Shown in pieces: positions 438-9,180 of a DNA stretch of 64,000 bases; the stretch's first letter is position 1, and each line of letters begins with the position of its first letter. Source of the DNA: Clostridia bacterium (GTDB lineage Bacteria > Bacillota > Clostridia > Oscillospirales > CAG-272); assembly GCA_017410065.1 (NCBI GenBank), contig JAFQRL010000022.1, forward strand, positions 1 to 64,000, read 5' to 3'. The notes below the pieces were generated by a model. It was not told where the DNA came from and did not search any database. It saw nothing but the letters and a program-made list of their open reading frames with translations. A program made the translations under genes and the position numbers.

Positions 438-2549
438 TTATTCCGCCGAAGGAACGTTATATGAGATGTTTACGTTATCGATCCTGATTTGACCGAGCCA
501 AATCGTATCAGGTACAAGTCTCGCCTGGTCGATTTGAGCGATCGTGTATACCTCATCGGTGTATGTTCCATTGCAAATAGGAGCGCCGTTGATATATACA
601 GTAGTTTTATACTGATTATCGGTTTCGGTTTTTTCGATCTCGATAACAAGCTTGAACCACTCGCCAACCTTAACCTCAGAGGTTTCATAGTTTTCGCGGT
701 CCATACTTGCTGCAATCTTGTTCGAAAAAACATCCAGATATACATACTCAATTCTGCTCTTATCGTTGGACGTGCTTCTGAAGGAAATTGGAATTGCACC
801 GCTAGCAGAATTGATCATAAGATCCATTTCTACCTTCACCTTGTCAGCATTATCCGCTGCCGCGACCGTCTGATAAAAGTCAATATAGCTCTGCCCGCCA
901 GTTGTTGCGTGGTCTATCCAGTTGATCCACGAACTATCAACGGACACATTCGCAAAGTTTTCAATACCGCAGTCAGCAAAGGAAGCCCCCGTAAAGGTGG
1001 TCTTTAAGCCGTTTACAGTAGTATTAACAGAAGCTACATTATTATAATCGTTGCCTGCGAAGCCTGTATCAGCAGCAGAAGATTTAAGATCAAGATTTGC
1101 CTGAGTGAAGGTTACCTTTGCAACGTCAAGACCTCCGATGAAGTCAGATGAGGGAAGAATAGAAAGCGAAGTAATCTTCTCGGCGGGTGAATAATAGGAG
1201 GTGCTATTATTATTCTGCAATTCCGTTTGTGAAACCAGTTTATTGTTGACATAAACCCACGTGTAGAAGCTGTCTGAGCTATAAGAGCTTCCAAAGGCAG
1301 TGTGCACGATACGTATATTGAACCATTCGTTTTTGCCTACACCGGTAGATTCGTTTTTGCTGTTTCCTGAATTTGCCGAGAAATTGCTTGTTGAAGACGT
1401 GTTAAGATAAACTCTGTGGGATCTGGTATTACTGGATGCTCCGCCGTAACCGAGAGAGAAGTCTATATTGTTTCCATAATACACAGTATCAATGGTAGAA
1501 TTGGAGGCATCAGTAATTCTCATCAGAACGTCAACCACAACGGTGTTTCCTTCAACTCCGTCAAGACTACGGACAAAACGGAATATTGGCTGACCGGTTA
1601 CTGCGGTAACGGAGCCATCCTCTTCAACTCTGCCGTATCCAGTGCCCTTCTTATAAGGGTCGTTTACGTGATAATAATTTCCGTAAACCTCATCTGTGCC
1701 TATGCTATAATCAGCAAGCGCGCCCGATTGGTTGCTGTCAACGAAAGTAAGATCACCAATGATAGATCCCGTTGCGGGAGCCTCGGTGAAGCCGGAAAAG
1801 TCACTGCTTACGGAATCCACAGCTTCAACAACCGTATTCGCTCTTGCGTAAATGCTTGCCGCGTCTACGGTATATCCAACATTGATAAGCTCGCCGTTCA
1901 AATCGTATTCGTAATACTTATATGCAGATTTGGGAGCAGAAATAGTCAGTATCTCGCCTGTTTTGTGCATGCCGCACTCGATTCCCTCTCCATATATATA
2001 GCGAAGTTCCTCAATAGGAGTAATTCCATCAACAGGAAAGACATTTTGAGCTGCCGCGCCGTATTCAAGGGTGGAGAGATAAAGCTCTTTTCTGAGAAGA
2101 TCGGCTGCCTCGGTGGCATTGATCACGTCGTTCTTATAAAGTCTTTCGTAGAAATATTCGGCAACCGAATAGGAGGTCTCTTCAACCACCTCGCCGTTAT
2201 ATTTAACGACAATGGAAAGCTCCTTGCTCATATTCTTTGGAGAAACGCCTGCCGCCTCAACAACGTAGGCAGAGACTCCATCCTTGATGGATATGGGCTC
2301 CTGAGAGACTACTGCATCTCTGCCGCCAACGGTGACGGAGAGGAGTGATGCGTCTGCAACGAGAGTTGCATCGATTGCAAAATAGGGGTGTATATCATCG
2401 GCATAAGCAACGTTTGCGGAGATGACCCATTTTTCATCTGCCTGTGCGGCAGGGGTGTCCTCTGCGGCGGAAGCACTTACACCAACAACAGCACCAAGAA
2501 GCAGTGCAAGGGTGAGCACTACTGCAAAAATGGCTGTTAACTTTTTCAT
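438..2549 (-). CDS. Large secreted protein with LamG-like regions (paralogue A)
   Basis: This 703-residue protein has a clear Sec signal peptide (KK followed by a hydrophobic stretch, cleavage likely after SASA at residue 28), so it is exported. Residues about 38-175 form a module shared with the 789-residue protein upstream, including a YSVAEYFYERLY motif (127-138) and LEYGAAAQ (161-168). The motif resembles one I associate with Clostridia surface proteins, but I know no named function. Residues about 255-700 are Ser/Thr/Asn-rich beta-strand sequence that looks like two concanavalin/LamG-type sandwiches, so glycan or surface binding is an inference. I see no catalytic motif, sorting signal or transmembrane anchor. 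The start follows a GAAAGGA ribosome binding site. It is the last gene of a probable operon with the short peptide gene and paralogue B. Confidence 0.8.
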   Translation of the reverse strand: MKKLTAIFAVVLTLALLLGAVVGVSASAAEDTPAAQADEKWVISANVAYADDIHPYFAIDATLVADASLLSVTVGGRDAVVSQEPISIKDGVSAYVVEAAGVSPKNMSKELSIVVKYNGEVVEETSYSVAEYFYERLYKNDVINATEAADLLRKELYLSTLEYGAAAQNVFPVDGITPIEELRYIYGEGIECGMHKTGEILTISAPKSAYKYYEYDLNGELINVGYTVDAASIYARANTVVEAVDSVSSDFSGFTEAPATGSIIGDLTFVDSNQSGALADYSIGTDEVYGNYYHVNDPYKKGTGYGRVEEDGSVTAVTGQPIFRFVRSLDGVEGNTVVVDVLMRITDASNSTIDTVYYGNNIDFSLGYGGASSNTRSHRVYLNTSSTSNFSANSGNSKNESTGVGKNEWFNIRIVHTAFGSSYSSDSFYTWVYVNNKLVSQTELQNNNSTSYYSPAEKITSLSILPSSDFIGGLDVAKVTFTQANLDLKSSAADTGFAGNDYNNVASVNTTVNGLKTTFTGASFADCGIENFANVSVDSSWINWIDHATTGGQSYIDFYQTVAAADNADKVKVEMDLMINSASGAIPISFRSTSNDKSRIEYVYLDVFSNKIAASMDRENYETSEVKVGEWFKLVIEIEKTETDNQYKTTVYINGAPICNGTYTDEVYTIAQIDQARLVPDTIWLGQIRIDNVNISYNVPSAE

Positions 2550-2583: not shown

Positions 2584-2709
2584 TCAGGTCCAAGCCTTGT
2601 CGTCGAAGTCCTCGCCGTCACCCAACGCCTCGGAGGTGGTGATAACGTCAAGCTCATCGATCATAACAAGCTCAAGCCTTGCTTCTTCATAAACAAGTTT
2701 TATGTTCAT
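2584..2709 (-). CDS. Short conserved peptide, 41 residues (peptide 1)
   Basis: The frame starts at ATG 2709, preceded by GAAAGGA like both secreted-protein genes beside it, and ends at TGA 2584. The product has no signal peptide. Its N-terminal half is amphipathic (VYEEARLELVMIDEL). Its C-terminal half carries DVITTSEA followed by GDGEDFDDKAWT, nearly identical to the plus-strand peptide at 5537-5668. Over the shared 21 codons the two genes differ by five synonymous changes and one conservative replacement (Leu/Met), a sign of selection on the protein. It sits 34 bp upstream of the 703-residue gene and 95 bp downstream of paralogue B. The function is unknown; it could be a precursor peptide, a secretion partner or a signalling peptide. 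I know no characterised family to assign. Confidence 0.8.
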   Translation of the reverse strand: MNIKLVYEEARLELVMIDELDVITTSEALGDGEDFDDKAWT

Positions 2710-2740
2710 AATGATGTAAATTCCTTTCAGATATCATCTC

Positions 2741-2763
2741 TACCGCTCCATAAAGAGACGGTA
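2741..2763 (-). other. Intercistronic stem-loop
   Basis: On the minus strand TACCG and CGGTA pair around an inner CTC/GAG stem with a short loop, between the stop of paralogue B and the start of peptide 1. There is no T-run, so it looks more like an RNA processing or stability element within the operon than a terminator. The role is inferred. Confidence 0.45.
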
Positions 2764-2804
2764 AAGCCAAAAAGTTTGAGTGATAAATAATACGAATCAA
2801 GAAA

Positions 2805-5174
2805 TCACTCGTTGGTGATTATGACGTTTCTTGTATAGAACAGCGATTGATAGCCTTTAGAAGGAACAACACTTGCACGAACGGCGTATGCGGAAGGATC
2901 AATCGTAGTGCTTGAACCGCAAGTATACGTAAGGCTCGTTACTTCTCCTCTAATATCGGTTACAATAACCGTTGCGGTTGCAGATGCTGCCACATCGCCA
3001 GCTGCGGGTGTATATACGTACTCATATCTTACGTGGAACCATTCGCCGAACTCAGCCGTTGTTGTTGCTCCGCCTTCAGCAGTCCAAGCAATTTTTCCAC
3101 CATTGTTATAGAAACGAAGTCCCATAACATTCTTTTTGTTGATTTGAAGACGGAAGAGGTTACCGCTGCTATACGTTCCAAGGCTTGACTTATCCAATTT
3201 TAGATCAGCCTCTACAACAATCTTTGTGTCAAATACTTCGGATGTATAGAAATTCAGCTGGCCCTGTCCGATATCAAGATTTTTAGCATCGCTCTCGCTT
3301 GCTTTACCGCTGTTATAGTCACTACCCGCGTGCGTGTCATCCATATAACCGTACACATCGTTTGTGAGAATATCCTTGTAGATAACCACGCTGCCCTTCC
3401 ATTGAGGAACAGGGTTTCCGTTTTCATCGTATGCCTTTATGGATGAAGGAGAAGCGAGGGTATCTCCGTCATCGTAGGCACCATTTCCGTTGACGTCATT
3501 TTCAAGATTCGCATACGAAGCTTGGCCGTATGCCGATTCATCCGTACCAATGATTACACCGGAGACTCCGGAAAGCTCAGGAACTTCAAGCTCAGGGAAA
3601 GAAAGCTCGGAGCCAAAATAAACGTAATCAACGTCATAAGTGCATGCAGCCGCCGAAGATGGCATTAATCTAAAGGTCTTTATGTCATCAAGTGACGTTA
3701 CCGCTGCGTACTTTTCTGTGTAATAAGGAACAAAGCAATTATTTTGATATTCTTCGCCGTTGTTTGAAACGATCGATCCGGTTTCATTGAGAACATATAA
3801 GGTGAGCGTTCCATCAAGCGCATACGTTATTCTAACTGTCATCCAATCACCTGCGGTAGTACAATTAAGAATAGTGGACGTGCTTGAATTAAAGTCGTTT
3901 GCAGCTTTACTTGTACAAATTTCGTATTTACCCGAATTGATCGGAAGGTACATACGCGCTGAAGCGCCAAATTCGACTGACTGGTTTGTGAGAGCTGTCG
4001 AAGAGCTGGTATAAAGTCTGAACTCAAGTGCATTGGTACCGCTTCCTGCGTTCGAATAGGAGTAACGAAGTCTCATATCGATAGTAAGAGTATCACCAGC
4101 TACCGTGGATGTATCTCTGGAGAAGATGGTCCAGTTCTGAGTAGTGGGTGGAGAGAAAGTGCCGTCTCCGTTGTCTATCTTACCCTTAGTTGTTGAGAGA
4201 TAACCGTTAGTTCCGTCTTTAACCAAAGCGGAGGTAACGGGAGCATTTGTAAGGCTCTGGGTATACTGCTGAACATTAGCTACGTTACCGCCGAAAAGAC
4301 CTAAGCTCTCAGCTGTATTAGCTTTTGCGGGAGAACCAAAATCGGTTGCCTCAGCGCTATCAAACGTAAGCGTGTTTTCAGGAATGACGTATTCAGCTTC
4401 CTTGATATTCATCTTGGTTATTACAGCCGGGTTCTTTATCAAATAATTACCGCCCGCAACAACGGAATTGACAACTTCGCCGTCAACGTAGGATTTCACG
4501 TTGTAATAACCGTTGTCAAGAGTGAGAAACTCGCGAGAATCAAAAATAACAGGAACAGACTCAACGTCCGAACGAACGTAGATCGCGTCCTCGATATAGA
4601 GGGCATCGGCTGCGGAGAGAAGCTTCTGCGCTGCGTTGCCGTACTTAAGGGATGCGAGGTAGAGCTCCTTTTTATTGAGAGCTTCGCCATCGGTGGCGAG
4701 AATGAACTCGTCCTTATAGAGGCGCTCGAAGAAATACTCGGCTACCGAATAGGTGGTGGTTTCAACGGTTGCACCGTTGTAGACGATCTCTATTGTGAGC
4801 TCGTCTGCCATATCCTTGGCTGCAACGCCGAGGGTGTGGATAATGTATGCGGGAACTGCGCCCTCGTCATACTCACCGTAGAGGTCTTCCTTAAACTCGC
4901 ATCTTAAAAATTCCTCGCAAGCGGCGTCAACACCGGGAACGGAAATCTTTACGGAGAGGAGCTCGGAGTCCTCGACCTTGCTTGCATCAATAGCGAGGAG
5001 AAGATGGATATTCTCGCTATAAGATACGTTTTTGGAGATCACCCATTTGCCGCCGTCTTCACTTGCCGCGACCGCGCCGTCGGTTTCTTCTGCCGATGCG
5101 GAGATCGCGAAAGCTGAGCAAAGAAGCACTGCAAGAGTGAGCGCCACGATTAGAATTTTGCTGAACTTTTTCAT
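2805..5174 (-). CDS. Large secreted protein with LamG-like regions (paralogue B)
   Basis: This is a 789-residue secreted protein with a signal peptide (residues 1-28, ending SASA). Residues about 42-190 match the N-terminal module of the 703-residue paralogue, including WVIS, YSVAEYFFERLY (142-153) and LKYGNAAQ (176-183). Two beta-rich, Ser/Thr/Asn-rich regions follow (about 265-525 and 590-785) and look like LamG/concanavalin folds. Between them lies a Ca-binding-like loop, DVNGNGAYDDGD (560-571), similar to EF-hand or dockerin loops but present only once, so I do not call a dockerin. It heads the operon with peptide 1 and paralogue A, with a sigma-A-type promoter about 40 bp upstream of the start. 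Extracellular glycan or surface attachment is an inference. Confidence 0.8.
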   Translation of the reverse strand: MKKFSKILIVALTLAVLLCSAFAISASAEETDGAVAASEDGGKWVISKNVSYSENIHLLLAIDASKVEDSELLSVKISVPGVDAACEEFLRCEFKEDLYGEYDEGAVPAYIIHTLGVAAKDMADELTIEIVYNGATVETTTYSVAEYFFERLYKDEFILATDGEALNKKELYLASLKYGNAAQKLLSAADALYIEDAIYVRSDVESVPVIFDSREFLTLDNGYYNVKSYVDGEVVNSVVAGGNYLIKNPAVITKMNIKEAEYVIPENTLTFDSAEATDFGSPAKANTAESLGLFGGNVANVQQYTQSLTNAPVTSALVKDGTNGYLSTTKGKIDNGDGTFSPPTTQNWTIFSRDTSTVAGDTLTIDMRLRYSYSNAGSGTNALEFRLYTSSSTALTNQSVEFGASARMYLPINSGKYEICTSKAANDFNSSTSTILNCTTAGDWMTVRITYALDGTLTLYVLNETGSIVSNNGEEYQNNCFVPYYTEKYAAVTSLDDIKTFRLMPSSAAACTYDVDYVYFGSELSFPELEVPELSGVSGVIIGTDESAYGQASYANLENDVNGNGAYDDGDTLASPSSIKAYDENGNPVPQWKGSVVIYKDILTNDVYGYMDDTHAGSDYNSGKASESDAKNLDIGQGQLNFYTSEVFDTKIVVEADLKLDKSSLGTYSSGNLFRLQINKKNVMGLRFYNNGGKIAWTAEGGATTTAEFGEWFHVRYEYVYTPAAGDVAASATATVIVTDIRGEVTSLTYTCGSSTTIDPSAYAVRASVVPSKGYQSLFYTRNVIITNE

Positions 5175-5218
5175 AGTGGATTCCTTTCAAAGATATATAA
5201 ATATTTTTGCTATAACCT

Positions 5219-5247
5219 ATTATAAACTCAATTGGTAAATATTTCAA
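5219..5247 (-). promoter_or_regulatory. Sigma-A-type promoter of the secreted-protein operon
   Basis: TTGAAA (5242-5247) and TATAAT (5219-5224) on the minus strand are separated by 17 bp. Transcription should begin near 5212 and read a 5' leader of about 40 nt before the GAAAGGA site of paralogue B. The wider gap 5175-5536 is A/T-rich, holds this and the divergent promoter at 5440-5468, and contains no other gene that I can see. Confidence 0.75.
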
Positions 5248-5439
5248 TTCGCAGAATAACCAAATATTACAAGTGGATATTATACATTTTGAACAAAATT
5301 TTGCACGATTCGAACATTTGTTAAAAAGTATTACAACAAATGAAAATTAACCGTTTATTTACTTTTTCGGAGTAAATTACTTTTGTTTGAGAATGGGAAT
5401 TTGTTAATAAAAAGTTTTTATATTTTTTAGCGTTAGGTC

Positions 5440-5468
5440 TTGAAAAAAGAGAAAAGTTGTGCTATAAT
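5440..5468 (+). promoter_or_regulatory. Strong extended -10 promoter of peptide 2
   Basis: TTGAAA (5440-5445), a 17-bp spacer and TATAAT (5463-5468) preceded by TGC form a near-consensus extended promoter. A predicted start near 5475 leaves a 5' leader of about 60 nt before the GGAGG site of peptide 2. A dedicated strong promoter and terminator around a 43-codon gene suggest high expression. Confidence 0.8.
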
Positions 5469-5536
5469 TTTAATAGAAATTAATAATTAACAATTATTTT
5501 TAACGAAATCAACGCGGCAAGATTGGAGGTATTATG

Positions 5537-5668
5537 ATGAAAAAGAAGATTTTACTTGATTACGAGCCCGCTGAGCTCACTATTATAAAGCTTTCCGAGG
5601 CAGACGTTATCACTACCTCTGAGGCTATGGGAGACGGCGAGGACTTTGACGACAAGGCTTGGACCTGA
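5537..5668 (+). CDS. Short conserved peptide, 43 residues (peptide 2)
   Basis: GGAGG at 5525-5529 lies 7 bp before the second of two consecutive ATG codons (5537), so I choose that start; 5534 would add one Met. The peptide has a basic start (MKKKILLDYEP), an amphipathic middle, then DVITTSEA and GDGEDFDDKAWT, matching peptide 1 at 20 of 21 residues. The N-terminal halves also align loosely (a hydrophobic stretch, YE, A, EL or LEL). It has its own promoter and terminator and is divergent from the secreted-protein operon. There is no signal peptide or Cys. The Asp/Glu-rich tail with a terminal Trp-Thr is the conserved signature. The function is unknown; proximity to two exported paralogues is the only clue. 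Confidence 0.8.
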   Translation: MKKKILLDYEPAELTIIKLSEADVITTSEAMGDGEDFDDKAWT

Positions 5669-5704
5669 TCTATGATCAGATGGCTTTGATGCCAAAGGAA
5701 TATA

Positions 5705-5780
5705 AAAAGAGCAGATCTAGGGTGCACCGCAAAGGCATTTGGCTTTTGGGCGGCATCACTCAGATCTGCTCTTTTCTTTT
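5705..5780. terminator. Bidirectional terminator between peptide 2 and sigG
   Basis: A 14-bp perfect inverted repeat (AAAAGAGCAGATCT at 5705-5718 and its complement at 5762-5775) encloses a 43-base loop and carries T-rich flanks on both strands. It lies between the convergent peptide 2 gene and sigG, and can end both transcripts. The loop is unusually long for a simple terminator. Confidence 0.8.
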
Positions 5781-5844: not shown

Positions 5845-6621
5845 TCATTCCATAAATTTTCGAAGCTTTTCGATAGCTCCCTTCTCAATTCGGGACACCT
5901 GCGCCTGGCTGATGCCGATCTCGGCGGCAATTTCCATTTGAGTTTTGCCTTTATAGAAGCGGCGGTCGATGATGTTTTTTTCCTTATCGGAGAGCTTTTT
6001 GAGGGCTTCGCGAAGGGAGATGCTTTCAACCCAGGCGTCGTCGCTTTCGGATTCATCCGCAAGCTTATCTATAACGAACATTGCGTCGTCGCCGTCGCCC
6101 CACACGCTGTCGAAGATGGAGATGGGGTCGACTATCGCCTCCATTGCCTCGGCGACAGCCTTTTCGTTTTCGCCGATCGCTTCGGATATTTCGGCAAGGC
6201 TTGGCTCGGACTGCTTTTCTCGGACGAGGGCTTCCTTCGCAGTGAGGGCGCGGTAGGCGAGGTCGCGCATACCTCGGCTGACGCGGAGAGCGGTGTTGTC
6301 GCGCTGGAATCGGCGCAGCTCGCCGATGATCATTGGTACTGCGTAGGTGGAGAAGCGGACGTCCATATCAAGGTTGAAGTTATCAATTGCTTTTATCAGC
6401 CCGATGCAACCGACCTGAAAAAGGTCGTCGGCGGTCTCGCCCTTGCGGTTAAACTTTGATATCACGCTGAGAACAAGGCGAAGATTTCCCATAACGAGAG
6501 CTTCTCTCGCCTCCGAGTCTCCCTCCCTTGCCTTCTTGAGAAGGGCGCGTTTTTCCTCCTCCTTCAAGGATCTTAGCTCGGAGGTGTTAATTCCGCAGAT
6601 TTCGACTTTATTTGTGCGCAT
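5845..6621 (-). CDS. sigG: RNA polymerase sigma-G factor (forespore)
   Basis: SigG directs late forespore transcription during endospore formation. The product carries the SigG signature MRTNKVEICGINTSEL at its start, the sigma-70 region 2 motif DDLFQVGCIGLIKAIDNFN, region 3, and a region 4 helix-turn-helix (TQMEIAAEIGISQAQVSRIE). I start at ATG 6621 because SigG proteins begin at this conserved NKVEICG segment, giving 258 residues, close to the family length of about 260. The frame stays open to an ATG at 6744, but the extra 41 residues look unlike the family. In Bacillus and many Clostridia sigG follows spoIIGA-sigE; here it stands alone, with peptide 2 downstream and a lipoprotein gene divergent upstream. 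Confidence 0.93.
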   Translation of the reverse strand: MRTNKVEICGINTSELRSLKEEEKRALLKKAREGDSEAREALVMGNLRLVLSVISKFNRKGETADDLFQVGCIGLIKAIDNFNLDMDVRFSTYAVPMIIGELRRFQRDNTALRVSRGMRDLAYRALTAKEALVREKQSEPSLAEISEAIGENEKAVAEAMEAIVDPISIFDSVWGDGDDAMFVIDKLADESESDDAWVESISLREALKKLSDKEKNIIDRRFYKGKTQMEIAAEIGISQAQVSRIEKGAIEKLRKFME

Positions 6622-6770
6622 ACCGTACCCCGTGTTGAGTTTTTTGCCTTTTATCGCAGTTTCTTTGCGGTTTCGGGCAGTTTCCGTGAGGTTAGTATTA
6701 CCGATATTTTGAAAATTAAACTTTACATTTGAATTTGCTGACAAATTTAGGTATAATGATTATAGAATGT

Positions 6771-7067: not shown

Positions 7068-9041
7068 ATGAAAAGACGGTTGCTTTCCCTATTTCTAGCA
7101 CTCATTATGCTTCTTTCTATGCTCGTTTCCTGTGGAGGAGGCGAGAGCTCGGGCGGAAAGGATAAGAACGATAACGAGACACCCCCTGCGGTCACGCCGC
7201 CTGATGAGGGGGGAGATGAAGAAGGAGGAGACGAGGAGTTGGACACATATTCACCCACAGCCACCGTGCTTGCCGTTAAGGGCGGTGCGAACGGAATAGT
7301 TGTGCTTCAGCACGACGACGGCGACTACGACACCGCCATTATTATGGATAGGCTTTTGAAGGAATACGACCTTGTTGCCGATGCGGCGCTCCTATCCAAC
7401 CGTTTATGGAACTATTCAAACGGCACGCCGAAGGCAGACGTGGTGGCGAAGTGGCGCGGAATTCTTGACACGGGTCGCTGGAAGATCACCTCTCATTCGG
7501 CAACGCACACCTGGTGGGGCACGGCAACCGACAACGGCGACGGCACGTACACTATTTCAGATAACGAGCAGAAGATGTACGATGAGATCGTTGGTTCTCA
7601 AAAGATCTTCCGTCAGCTCTTCCCCGACCAAAGAGTGCTGACGTTTGCGTATCCCGGCTTCACGACCGAGAAGAACAAGTATACCGACGGCAGCGAGGCG
7701 GGTATTCTTGAATACATATATTCCGATGCGGCAAGAGAGCTTATCGGAGAGACTTATATTGCGGGGCGAAGAGTTCAGGCTGATTATCCTGTGACAGACA
7801 CGGGCATTGACTGGACTATGACGGGCAGCTATCACATCGGAGGAAACTATTTCTCAAAGAAGGCAACGCAGGCAGGCGAGCGGGGCACGTTTATGGTGCT
7901 TTACGTTCACAGGGTTGCAGACGTTCCCGAGGATCAGCTCAAGACCTATGATTACCCCTCGAACACTATGGCGGCGTACTATCTTGAGGACACCTGCAAG
8001 CAGCTTGCCGAGAGCATTGCGAGCGGGGCGGTGTGGAATGCGCACTACGAGGATGCGACGATGTATCTTCGCGAGGCACAGAGCGCGAGCGTTTCCGTGA
8101 GCGGTGATAAGTCGGGGCTTTCGGTGCTTCTCACCGACGGGATGGATGATGAAATTTACAACTTCCCTCTTACAGTCAGGATCAAGGCGCACGAGGATTG
8201 GCAGGCGGTGAAGGTCACGCAGGGTGACAGAGTGAGCTATGCAAAGGTTGAATACGAGGCATACGAATTCTACGGCGGCGAATACTACGCGCTTCTTGAC
8301 ATAGTGCCCGACGGCGGCGAGGCGAAGGTTGAACCCATCGCGCTTTCGGATATGCCCGAGGTGAAGCCCGAGGAGCCGAAGCCCACGCCCACCGTTCCAG
8401 AGCCCGAGAAGCCCGAGGTCGACCCGGGCAGGCCTGCGGACGCAAGGCTTTATGCTTCTATTGATTTTAATGACGGATATGATGCGGAATTTTCGGAGAC
8501 CTCCACCTGCTCAACGGTTGAGAGAGTGATTCCCGAGGGCAGAGACACGGCGGCACTCCATATCACAAAGACCTCAACCGATGCGACGGACAGATTCTTC
8601 TTCGATGCGGGCGGCAAGGTAACGGATGCAAAGGAGGTTACGATCTCCTATTCGATGAAGCTGAATACATCTTATAACGGCCTTTTGGTTCAAACGCTAT
8701 TCAGCGATTCAACAAGCACGACGCCCTATAATATGACGATCAGGACGGCGCAGGACGGCTTCTACTTCAGCGAGATCCCCGGAAATGCTACCTTAACGAA
8801 AAAATATTCCTACAACGAATGGCACACGGTAGAGCTTAAGATGAGCTTTGGCGAGGACGGCTCCTTCCTTGCGGTCATCACGGTTGACGGTGCGGAGGCT
8901 GCGAGGTCGACAAACTTCGCGTCATCCCTTGCGTCAGATGCAACGAAGCCCTCAAGAACAATATCAAGAATGGGTTTCTATTGGCAGAAGGCAACGACTC
9001 TCGACGTTTATATTGACGACGTTATCATCTACGTTAAGTGA
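7068..9041 (+). CDS. Lipoprotein with polysaccharide deacetylase-like and LamG-like domains
   Basis: This 657-residue protein has a lipobox (LVSC, Cys22) and should be anchored on the outer face of the membrane. After a Gly/Asp/Glu/Pro linker, residues about 65-310 resemble a carbohydrate esterase family 4 (NodB) fold: VLQHDDGDYD (80-89) at the metal-Asp motif, HSATH (143-147) as the two metal histidines, and FAYPGF (193-198) as the third motif. The first motif departs from the usual TFDDG. A Pro/Glu-rich linker (about 425-455) leads to a beta-rich C-terminal domain (about 457-657) that looks LamG-like, as in the two secreted paralogues nearby. Deacetylation of a wall or dietary glycan is likely but inferred. 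It is monocistronic, with a convergent phosphoribosyltransferase downstream. Confidence 0.8.
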   Translation: MKRRLLSLFLALIMLLSMLVSCGGGESSGGKDKNDNETPPAVTPPDEGGDEEGGDEELDTYSPTATVLAVKGGANGIVVLQHDDGDYDTAIIMDRLLKEYDLVADAALLSNRLWNYSNGTPKADVVAKWRGILDTGRWKITSHSATHTWWGTATDNGDGTYTISDNEQKMYDEIVGSQKIFRQLFPDQRVLTFAYPGFTTEKNKYTDGSEAGILEYIYSDAARELIGETYIAGRRVQADYPVTDTGIDWTMTGSYHIGGNYFSKKATQAGERGTFMVLYVHRVADVPEDQLKTYDYPSNTMAAYYLEDTCKQLAESIASGAVWNAHYEDATMYLREAQSASVSVSGDKSGLSVLLTDGMDDEIYNFPLTVRIKAHEDWQAVKVTQGDRVSYAKVEYEAYEFYGGEYYALLDIVPDGGEAKVEPIALSDMPEVKPEEPKPTPTVPEPEKPEVDPGRPADARLYASIDFNDGYDAEFSETSTCSTVERVIPEGRDTAALHITKTSTDATDRFFFDAGGKVTDAKEVTISYSMKLNTSYNGLLVQTLFSDSTSTTPYNMTIRTAQDGFYFSEIPGNATLTKKYSYNEWHTVELKMSFGEDGSFLAVITVDGAEAARSTNFASSLASDATKPSRTISRMGFYWQKATTLDVYIDDVIIYVK

Positions 9042-9134
9042 GGATCGGTGCCACAAAAAGCAAAGGTAAAAAACATTATTTTTATACTGTTTTTTCTAAA
9101 TCTCAAGGCAAAATATAAAAGTTAAAGCAAGAGC

Positions 9135-9180
9135 AAAACCGCAGAAAATGCAAATAATTATGTGCATTTTCTGCGGTTTT
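9135..9180. terminator. Bidirectional terminator
   Basis: A long perfect stem (AAAACCGCAGAAAATGCA and its complement) sits between the convergent lipoprotein and phosphoribosyltransferase genes, with A-tracts and T-tracts on both sides. Its loop contains a TGCAAA...CATTTT motif that recurs in this window (see findings). Confidence 0.85.

Follow-up and report, generated by a model that had tools for sequence, protein, structure and literature searches.

Two short genes beside a pair of exported paralogues

The window, a stretch of 64,000 nucleotides of DNA from a gut Clostridia bacterium, carries near its start two short genes, P1 and P2, together with two large genes whose products are exported paralogues with a YSVAEYF(Y/F)ERLYK stretch in common (Table 1). 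Both short reading frames had been predicted, with products of 41 residues (P1, minus strand) and 43 residues (P2, plus strand), and both were confirmed in position and in translation; P2 may start either at 5537, giving 43 residues, or at a second ATG at 5534, giving 44. The original prediction also described the two peptide genes as flanking the paralogues. Their linkage to the pair holds, but P1 sits between the two paralogue genes and on their strand, and P2 is a separate gene outside the pair's operon, divergent from the gene for the larger paralogue and 359 bp away from it.

Table 1. Features of the P1 and P2 region, with positions in the window.
Feature	Position	Strand	Description
703-aa exported partner	438..2549	-	directly downstream of P1 (34-bp gap), with the module in residues 42-199
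YSVAEYF..ERLY..LxYGAAAQ module of the 703-aa protein	1953..2426	-	aa 42-199
P1, precursor-like peptide	2584..2709	-	41 aa; leader-like YEEARLELVMIDELDVITTS followed by variable tail EALGDGEDFDDKAWT
789-aa exported paralogue	2805..5174	-	directly upstream of P1, gap 95 bp; module at aa 45-210
YSVAEYF..ERLY..LxYGAAAQ module of the 789-aa protein	4545..5042	-	aa 45-210
Sigma-70-like promoter match	5219..5247	-	upstream of the gene string 789-aa protein, P1, 703-aa protein
Sigma-70-like promoter match of P2	5440..5468	+	TTGAAA-17-TATAAT
P2, precursor-like peptide	5534..5668	+	43-44 aa; YEPAELTIIKLSEADVITTS followed by EAMGDGEDFDDKAWT
Likely P2 terminator	5705..5775	+	14-bp perfect hairpin arms, then T run

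Comparison of the last 21 sense codons of P1 and P2 revealed five synonymous changes and one replacement (L/M), corresponding to a pS of 0.385 and a pN of 0.020 by the Nei-Gojobori method. P1 and P2 are under protein-level selection, which upholds the proposal that they represent a selected protein and not a copied DNA repeat. The shortness of the reading frames and the nearness of two like copies could be read as signs of chance ORFs or of such a repeat. Scarcely any probability remains for this explanation in view of the codon comparison and of the homologues, which occur in many genomes and families and are accompanied by Shine-Dalgarno-like sequences.

A promoter and a terminator had been attributed to P2, and a candidate for each was located. 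The promoter match agrees at 11 of 12 positions and has a TG preceding the second hexamer. The hairpin arms of the plausible terminator (5705-5718 and 5762-5775; z -5.8) escaped a simple terminator scan because they enclose a loop of 43 nt. P2 adjoins the gene for the sporulation sigma factor SigG (5845-6744, minus strand; NF006071, 4.8e-114). In a relative (genome G002, locus L063) a peptide gene is also found after SigG, yet it points into an exported gene. This arrangement raised the possibility that P2 undergoes phase-variable inversion, but its flanks showed no convincing inverted repeats.

Searches of Pfam and NCBIfam returned no match for the P1 and P2 peptides, the peptide profile, run against the PDB, yielded chance matches only, and no paper came up in a literature text search for DVITTSG.

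A peptide family with a conserved front and a variable end

P1 and P2 belong to a family with five members on four contigs of their own genome (2.37 Mb, 47 contigs). Members were detected in 50 of 69 genomes of the same genus, with up to 31 per genome, and in 44 of 293 genomes of a class-wide sample; most of the genomes surveyed are MAGs, and kinship among them means that these counts are not independent. Genes in the loci were called mechanically, as ORFs. A sequence-based search for related loci returned only two, both in Clostridia bacterium RGIG4707 (roe deer rectum).

The peptides are mostly 40-55 residues long, and no signal peptide was seen in them. Their conserved part is the first half, consisting of a Lys-rich start, a Y-x-x-(P/A)-x-hydrophobic-x-hydrophobic motif and then D-(V/I)-I-x-x-S. 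Among 100 distinct peptides, the first motif residue is Y in 89% and F in 11%, position Y+3 is P in 50% and A in 39% (89% together), the motif D is present in 96% and the motif S in 97%. Both P1 and P2 carry A, not P, at Y+3. The tail that follows the S is variable and G/D-rich, with a median net charge of -4; Trp is present in 67 of 95 tails and Cys in 5 of 95. Emphasis had originally been placed on the shared C-terminus of P1 and P2. This was misplaced: the likeness of the tails is a within-genome feature, whereas across the family the tail varies and the N-terminal half is conserved. RiPP precursors have this layout of conserved front and variable end, and the front of these peptides is similar to the YxxPxL motif in leaders to which PqqD-type recognition elements bind.

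One locus (L090) holds tandem peptide genes (4977-5156 and 5453-5674, both on the minus strand) whose products have identical first 35 residues and different ends; the end of the second has the appearance of a copy that was recombined or broken.

Exported neighbours often carry a common module

We recorded the same-strand neighbour of each peptide gene within 150 bp, and counted it as qualifying if it had a signal-peptide-like start (judged by a simple in-house rule), carried the module described below or was cut by the contig end. Among the loci read, 55 of 66 peptides had such a neighbour. The module spans about 170 residues and contains the YSVAEYFxERLY stretch. It was present in 35 of 58 partner genes versus 9 of 467 other genes, and a peptide gene is likewise present in the loci of all nine of the latter. 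Homologues beside similar secreted proteins in other genomes, on which the original prediction depended, were sought and found. With an upstream peptide gene, the module is N-terminal, just after the signal peptide, in 25 of 28 cases; with a downstream one, it is doubled and ends 1-4 residues from the C-terminus in 6 of 6, a count that excludes three peptides situated between two partners.

In the class sample the module was detected in 17 genomes, 16 of which are peptide genomes (Fisher 7e-14), although its wider distribution is probably underestimated because the profile was built mainly from the genus of the window. In the window's own genome two module genes lack an adjacent peptide gene; they encode large exported proteins (L275:1519-6534, minus strand; L276:4916-9679, plus strand). 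AlphaFold models of the module from two sequences had a mean pLDDT of 42, too poor for use.

The peptide gene often lies 20-90 bp upstream of the exported gene and on the same strand, as would be expected of regulatory leader peptides (attenuators or arrest peptides) controlling translation of the downstream gene. Such a function is highly unlikely, since 6 module genes have the peptide gene immediately after them, P2 is a single divergent gene, and synonymous changes predominate between P1 and P2.

A kinase, a PqqD-type protein and a peptidase accompany the peptides

In the window's own genome, contig C29 (locus L101) encodes a SipW-like S24/S26 peptidase (7523-7978), an overlapping stand-alone PqqD protein (7971-8228; PF05402, E 3.7e-14) and an adjoining HprK-like kinase (8292-9179). 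The stretch of contig around this trio holds no peptide gene, no ABC exporter lies beside it, and no NTP_transf_5 gene was found in this 96% complete MAG. A second PqqD match in the genome (contig C47) was set aside, as its ORF overlaps other genes. The genome also encodes a SCIFF radical-SAM maturase (contig C26, L103:7431-8816, minus strand; TIGR03974, 3.9e-227), part of a separate RiPP pathway. It was rejected as a maturase of the peptides: as an equivalog it has a Cys-rich substrate family of its own, and the peptides rarely contain Cys.

A full-length HprK-like kinase was detected in 42 of 44 peptide genomes versus 8 of 249 others in the class sample (Fisher 3.6e-40, 20 families), a p-value that is inflated because the genomes are related; the operons in seven separate families described below are independent of it. 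In one of the two exceptions among the peptide genomes the kinase match is split into two adjacent pieces. The peptide was found in none of the 28 genomes having only a partial-match type of HprK-like kinase. Within the genus, the kinase is present in 60 of 69 genomes and PqqD in 51 of 69. Five genomes of one family (f69: G255, G335, G221, G322 and G199) have the full-length kinase and no peptide at E 0.01; their precursors are perhaps too divergent for the peptide profile.

In seven families the peptide gene stands in an operon with genes for the kinase, the PqqD-type protein and the SipW-like peptidase. In distant families it is either directly beside these genes (L246, L250, L251) or one small gene away from them (L247-L249, L252, L253). 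In single-copy genomes of distant families the operon comprises the exported protein, the peptide, often a small gene, the kinase, PqqD and the peptidase, and ends with a PF14907 nucleotidyltransferase (NTP_transf_5) and an ABC exporter, whose order varies (L246-L253); by their coordinates, G326 and G101 have the same peptide-maturation operon. Of 20 peptide genomes, 16 have NTP_transf_5, in many cases as part of the operon, and the exporter of the compact loci of other families is of MsbA type.

The catalytic Ser, His and Asp of the peptidase are kept in 25 of 25 sequences, and signal peptidase I models match it best, though below cut-off. The kinase alignment shows conservation of SGxGK(S/T)TH (P-loop) and N(D/G)DKP; no HprK structure was found by a PDB search with the kinase profile.

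Tight synteny with exported proteins, acidic tails and the lack of a visible signal peptide would also suit peptides that act in the cytoplasm as partners of the exported proteins, whether as chaperones, anti-aggregation factors or export helpers, with the maturation locus a coincidence. This is improbable given that the kinase tracks the peptides genome-wide, that operons with maturation genes occur in many families, and that the peptides combine a near-invariant Ser with an RRE-type motif.

Relation to linear polyphosphorylated peptides

Linear polyphosphorylated peptides (LPP) are a kind of RiPP described in May 2026 for the lppAKBSDN genes of Paenibacillus alginolyticus (PMC13381572). The RRE LppB binds YxxP leaders with the aid of N33 (Pro kink) and D70 (Tyr bond), LppK phosphorylates core Ser3, and LppS (Ser-His-Asp) removes the leader (PMC13381572). 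The published leader consensus is YxxPxVLxHQxIxFETxxS, the setting described is capsular polysaccharide loci with 1-3 precursors per cluster, and the biological roles of LPP are stated there as unknown (PMC13381572).

The peptide family shares with LPP a discrete PqqD-type RRE, an HprK-like kinase and a SipW-like Ser-His-Asp peptidase, joined in compact loci of other families by NTP_transf_5 and an MsbA-type exporter, as well as a YxxP/A leader, a near-invariant Ser near the leader/core border, a variable C-terminus and the absence of a lasso cyclase. The RRE profile matches TbiB1, TfuB1, PbaB1 and LppB (9x8z); the equivalent of LppB N33 is kept in 14 of 18 RREs and that of D70 in 16 of 18, and the copy in the window's genome has both. 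Unlike the LPP leader, however, the family leader matches only at Y..P/A..hydrophobic and the Ser, HQ and FET being missing, and since the full consensus is not matched we file the family as a variant of LPP. By alignment, the near-invariant Ser appears as the natural counterpart of LPP Ser3, which would put the cut two residues ahead of it (DVI/TTS), a placement that is uncertain because D-V-I at positions -3 to -1 is unlike F-E-T. The family further differs from LPP in that its precursors are short, paired with module-bearing exported proteins, and scattered (5 here, up to 31 in one genome) at a distance from one maturation locus. New here are the dispersal of the precursors, many of which apparently depend on one maturation locus, and the pairing.

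Lasso peptides also combine a similar leader with an RRE and a kinase, their tail being cyclised into a lasso. The YxxPxL-like leader of the family is in keeping with this, NCBIfam models of lasso chaperones match PqqD, though below cut-off, and a kinase and a nucleotidyltransferase are also present in paeninodin clusters (PMC7533575), whose logic of RRE, HprK-like kinase, nucleotidyltransferase and ABC exporter is alike. In contrast to paeninodin, the family has neither macrolactam cyclase nor B2 peptidase, its leader has Y in place of W, and its RRE carries Asn at a position occupied by Gly in paeninodin RREs. No Asn_synthase domain was found in the window's own genome and no Transglut_core3 (B2) above cut-off in 20 peptide genomes; where Asn_synthase was found, it was never at the maturation locus. 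Moreover, many tails do not offer a suitable first residue together with a ring-closing Asp/Glu at a fixed position. Because cyclase and B2 are missing, we excluded lasso peptides, which have very little probability left. HPr-rel-A and SynChlorMet cassettes (TIGR04352/04353 and TIGR04249/04248) likewise contain an HprK-like kinase and a PqqD-like protein; assignment to either was rejected, the NCBIfam matches being far below curated cut-offs.

A model for maturation in trans

Taken together, the comparisons indicate that P1 and P2 are very probably precursors of LPP-type RiPPs, matured in trans. The N-terminal half, with its Y-x-x-P/A-x-hydrophobic motif, would be the leader and would be bound by the stand-alone PqqD-type RRE of contig C29. 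The HprK-like kinase encoded beside it would phosphorylate the near-invariant Ser of D(V/I)IxxS; the SipW-like Ser-His-Asp peptidase, likewise encoded there, would cut near that Ser and free the acidic Gly/Asp-rich tail, which an ABC exporter would carry out. A single maturation locus would in this way serve the five dispersed precursors of the genome. Among the roles originally guessed for the peptides, that of precursor agrees with this reading, and the existence of a family and its linkage to the exported module also stood.

As to function, the likeliest use suggested by synteny, that is by gene position, is that the mature peptide acts on or with the module of the exported neighbour at the cell surface. 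A more specific idea, which we put forward tentatively and regard as rather unlikely, is that the YSVAEYFxERLY-type module is served by the mature phosphopeptide as its dedicated ligand, tag or anchor. If this were true, one maturation locus would furnish modified peptides for an entire set of surface proteins, and surface proteins could, for example, be linked via phosphate to the cell surface or to a glycan.

Operon position and co-occurrence repeatedly tie these probable LPP precursors to one exported-protein module, and so provide a concrete, testable partner. With scattered precursors and apparently one maturation locus, a search limited to clusters would miss such precursors. The assignment also suggests what many small, unannotated genes of gut Clostridia are likely to be.

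Other genes recur beside the peptides and their exported neighbours. Many peptide genes, in loci L058-L097, adjoin a member of a 15-member protein cluster (c1), often divergently; this protein is possibly a transcription regulator. Genome G031 (L068, L070, L074, L075) contains a repeated block of exported protein, peptide, a protein of about 420 aa and one of about 1200 aa, the ~420-aa protein being of no known family; the block looks duplicated as a unit.
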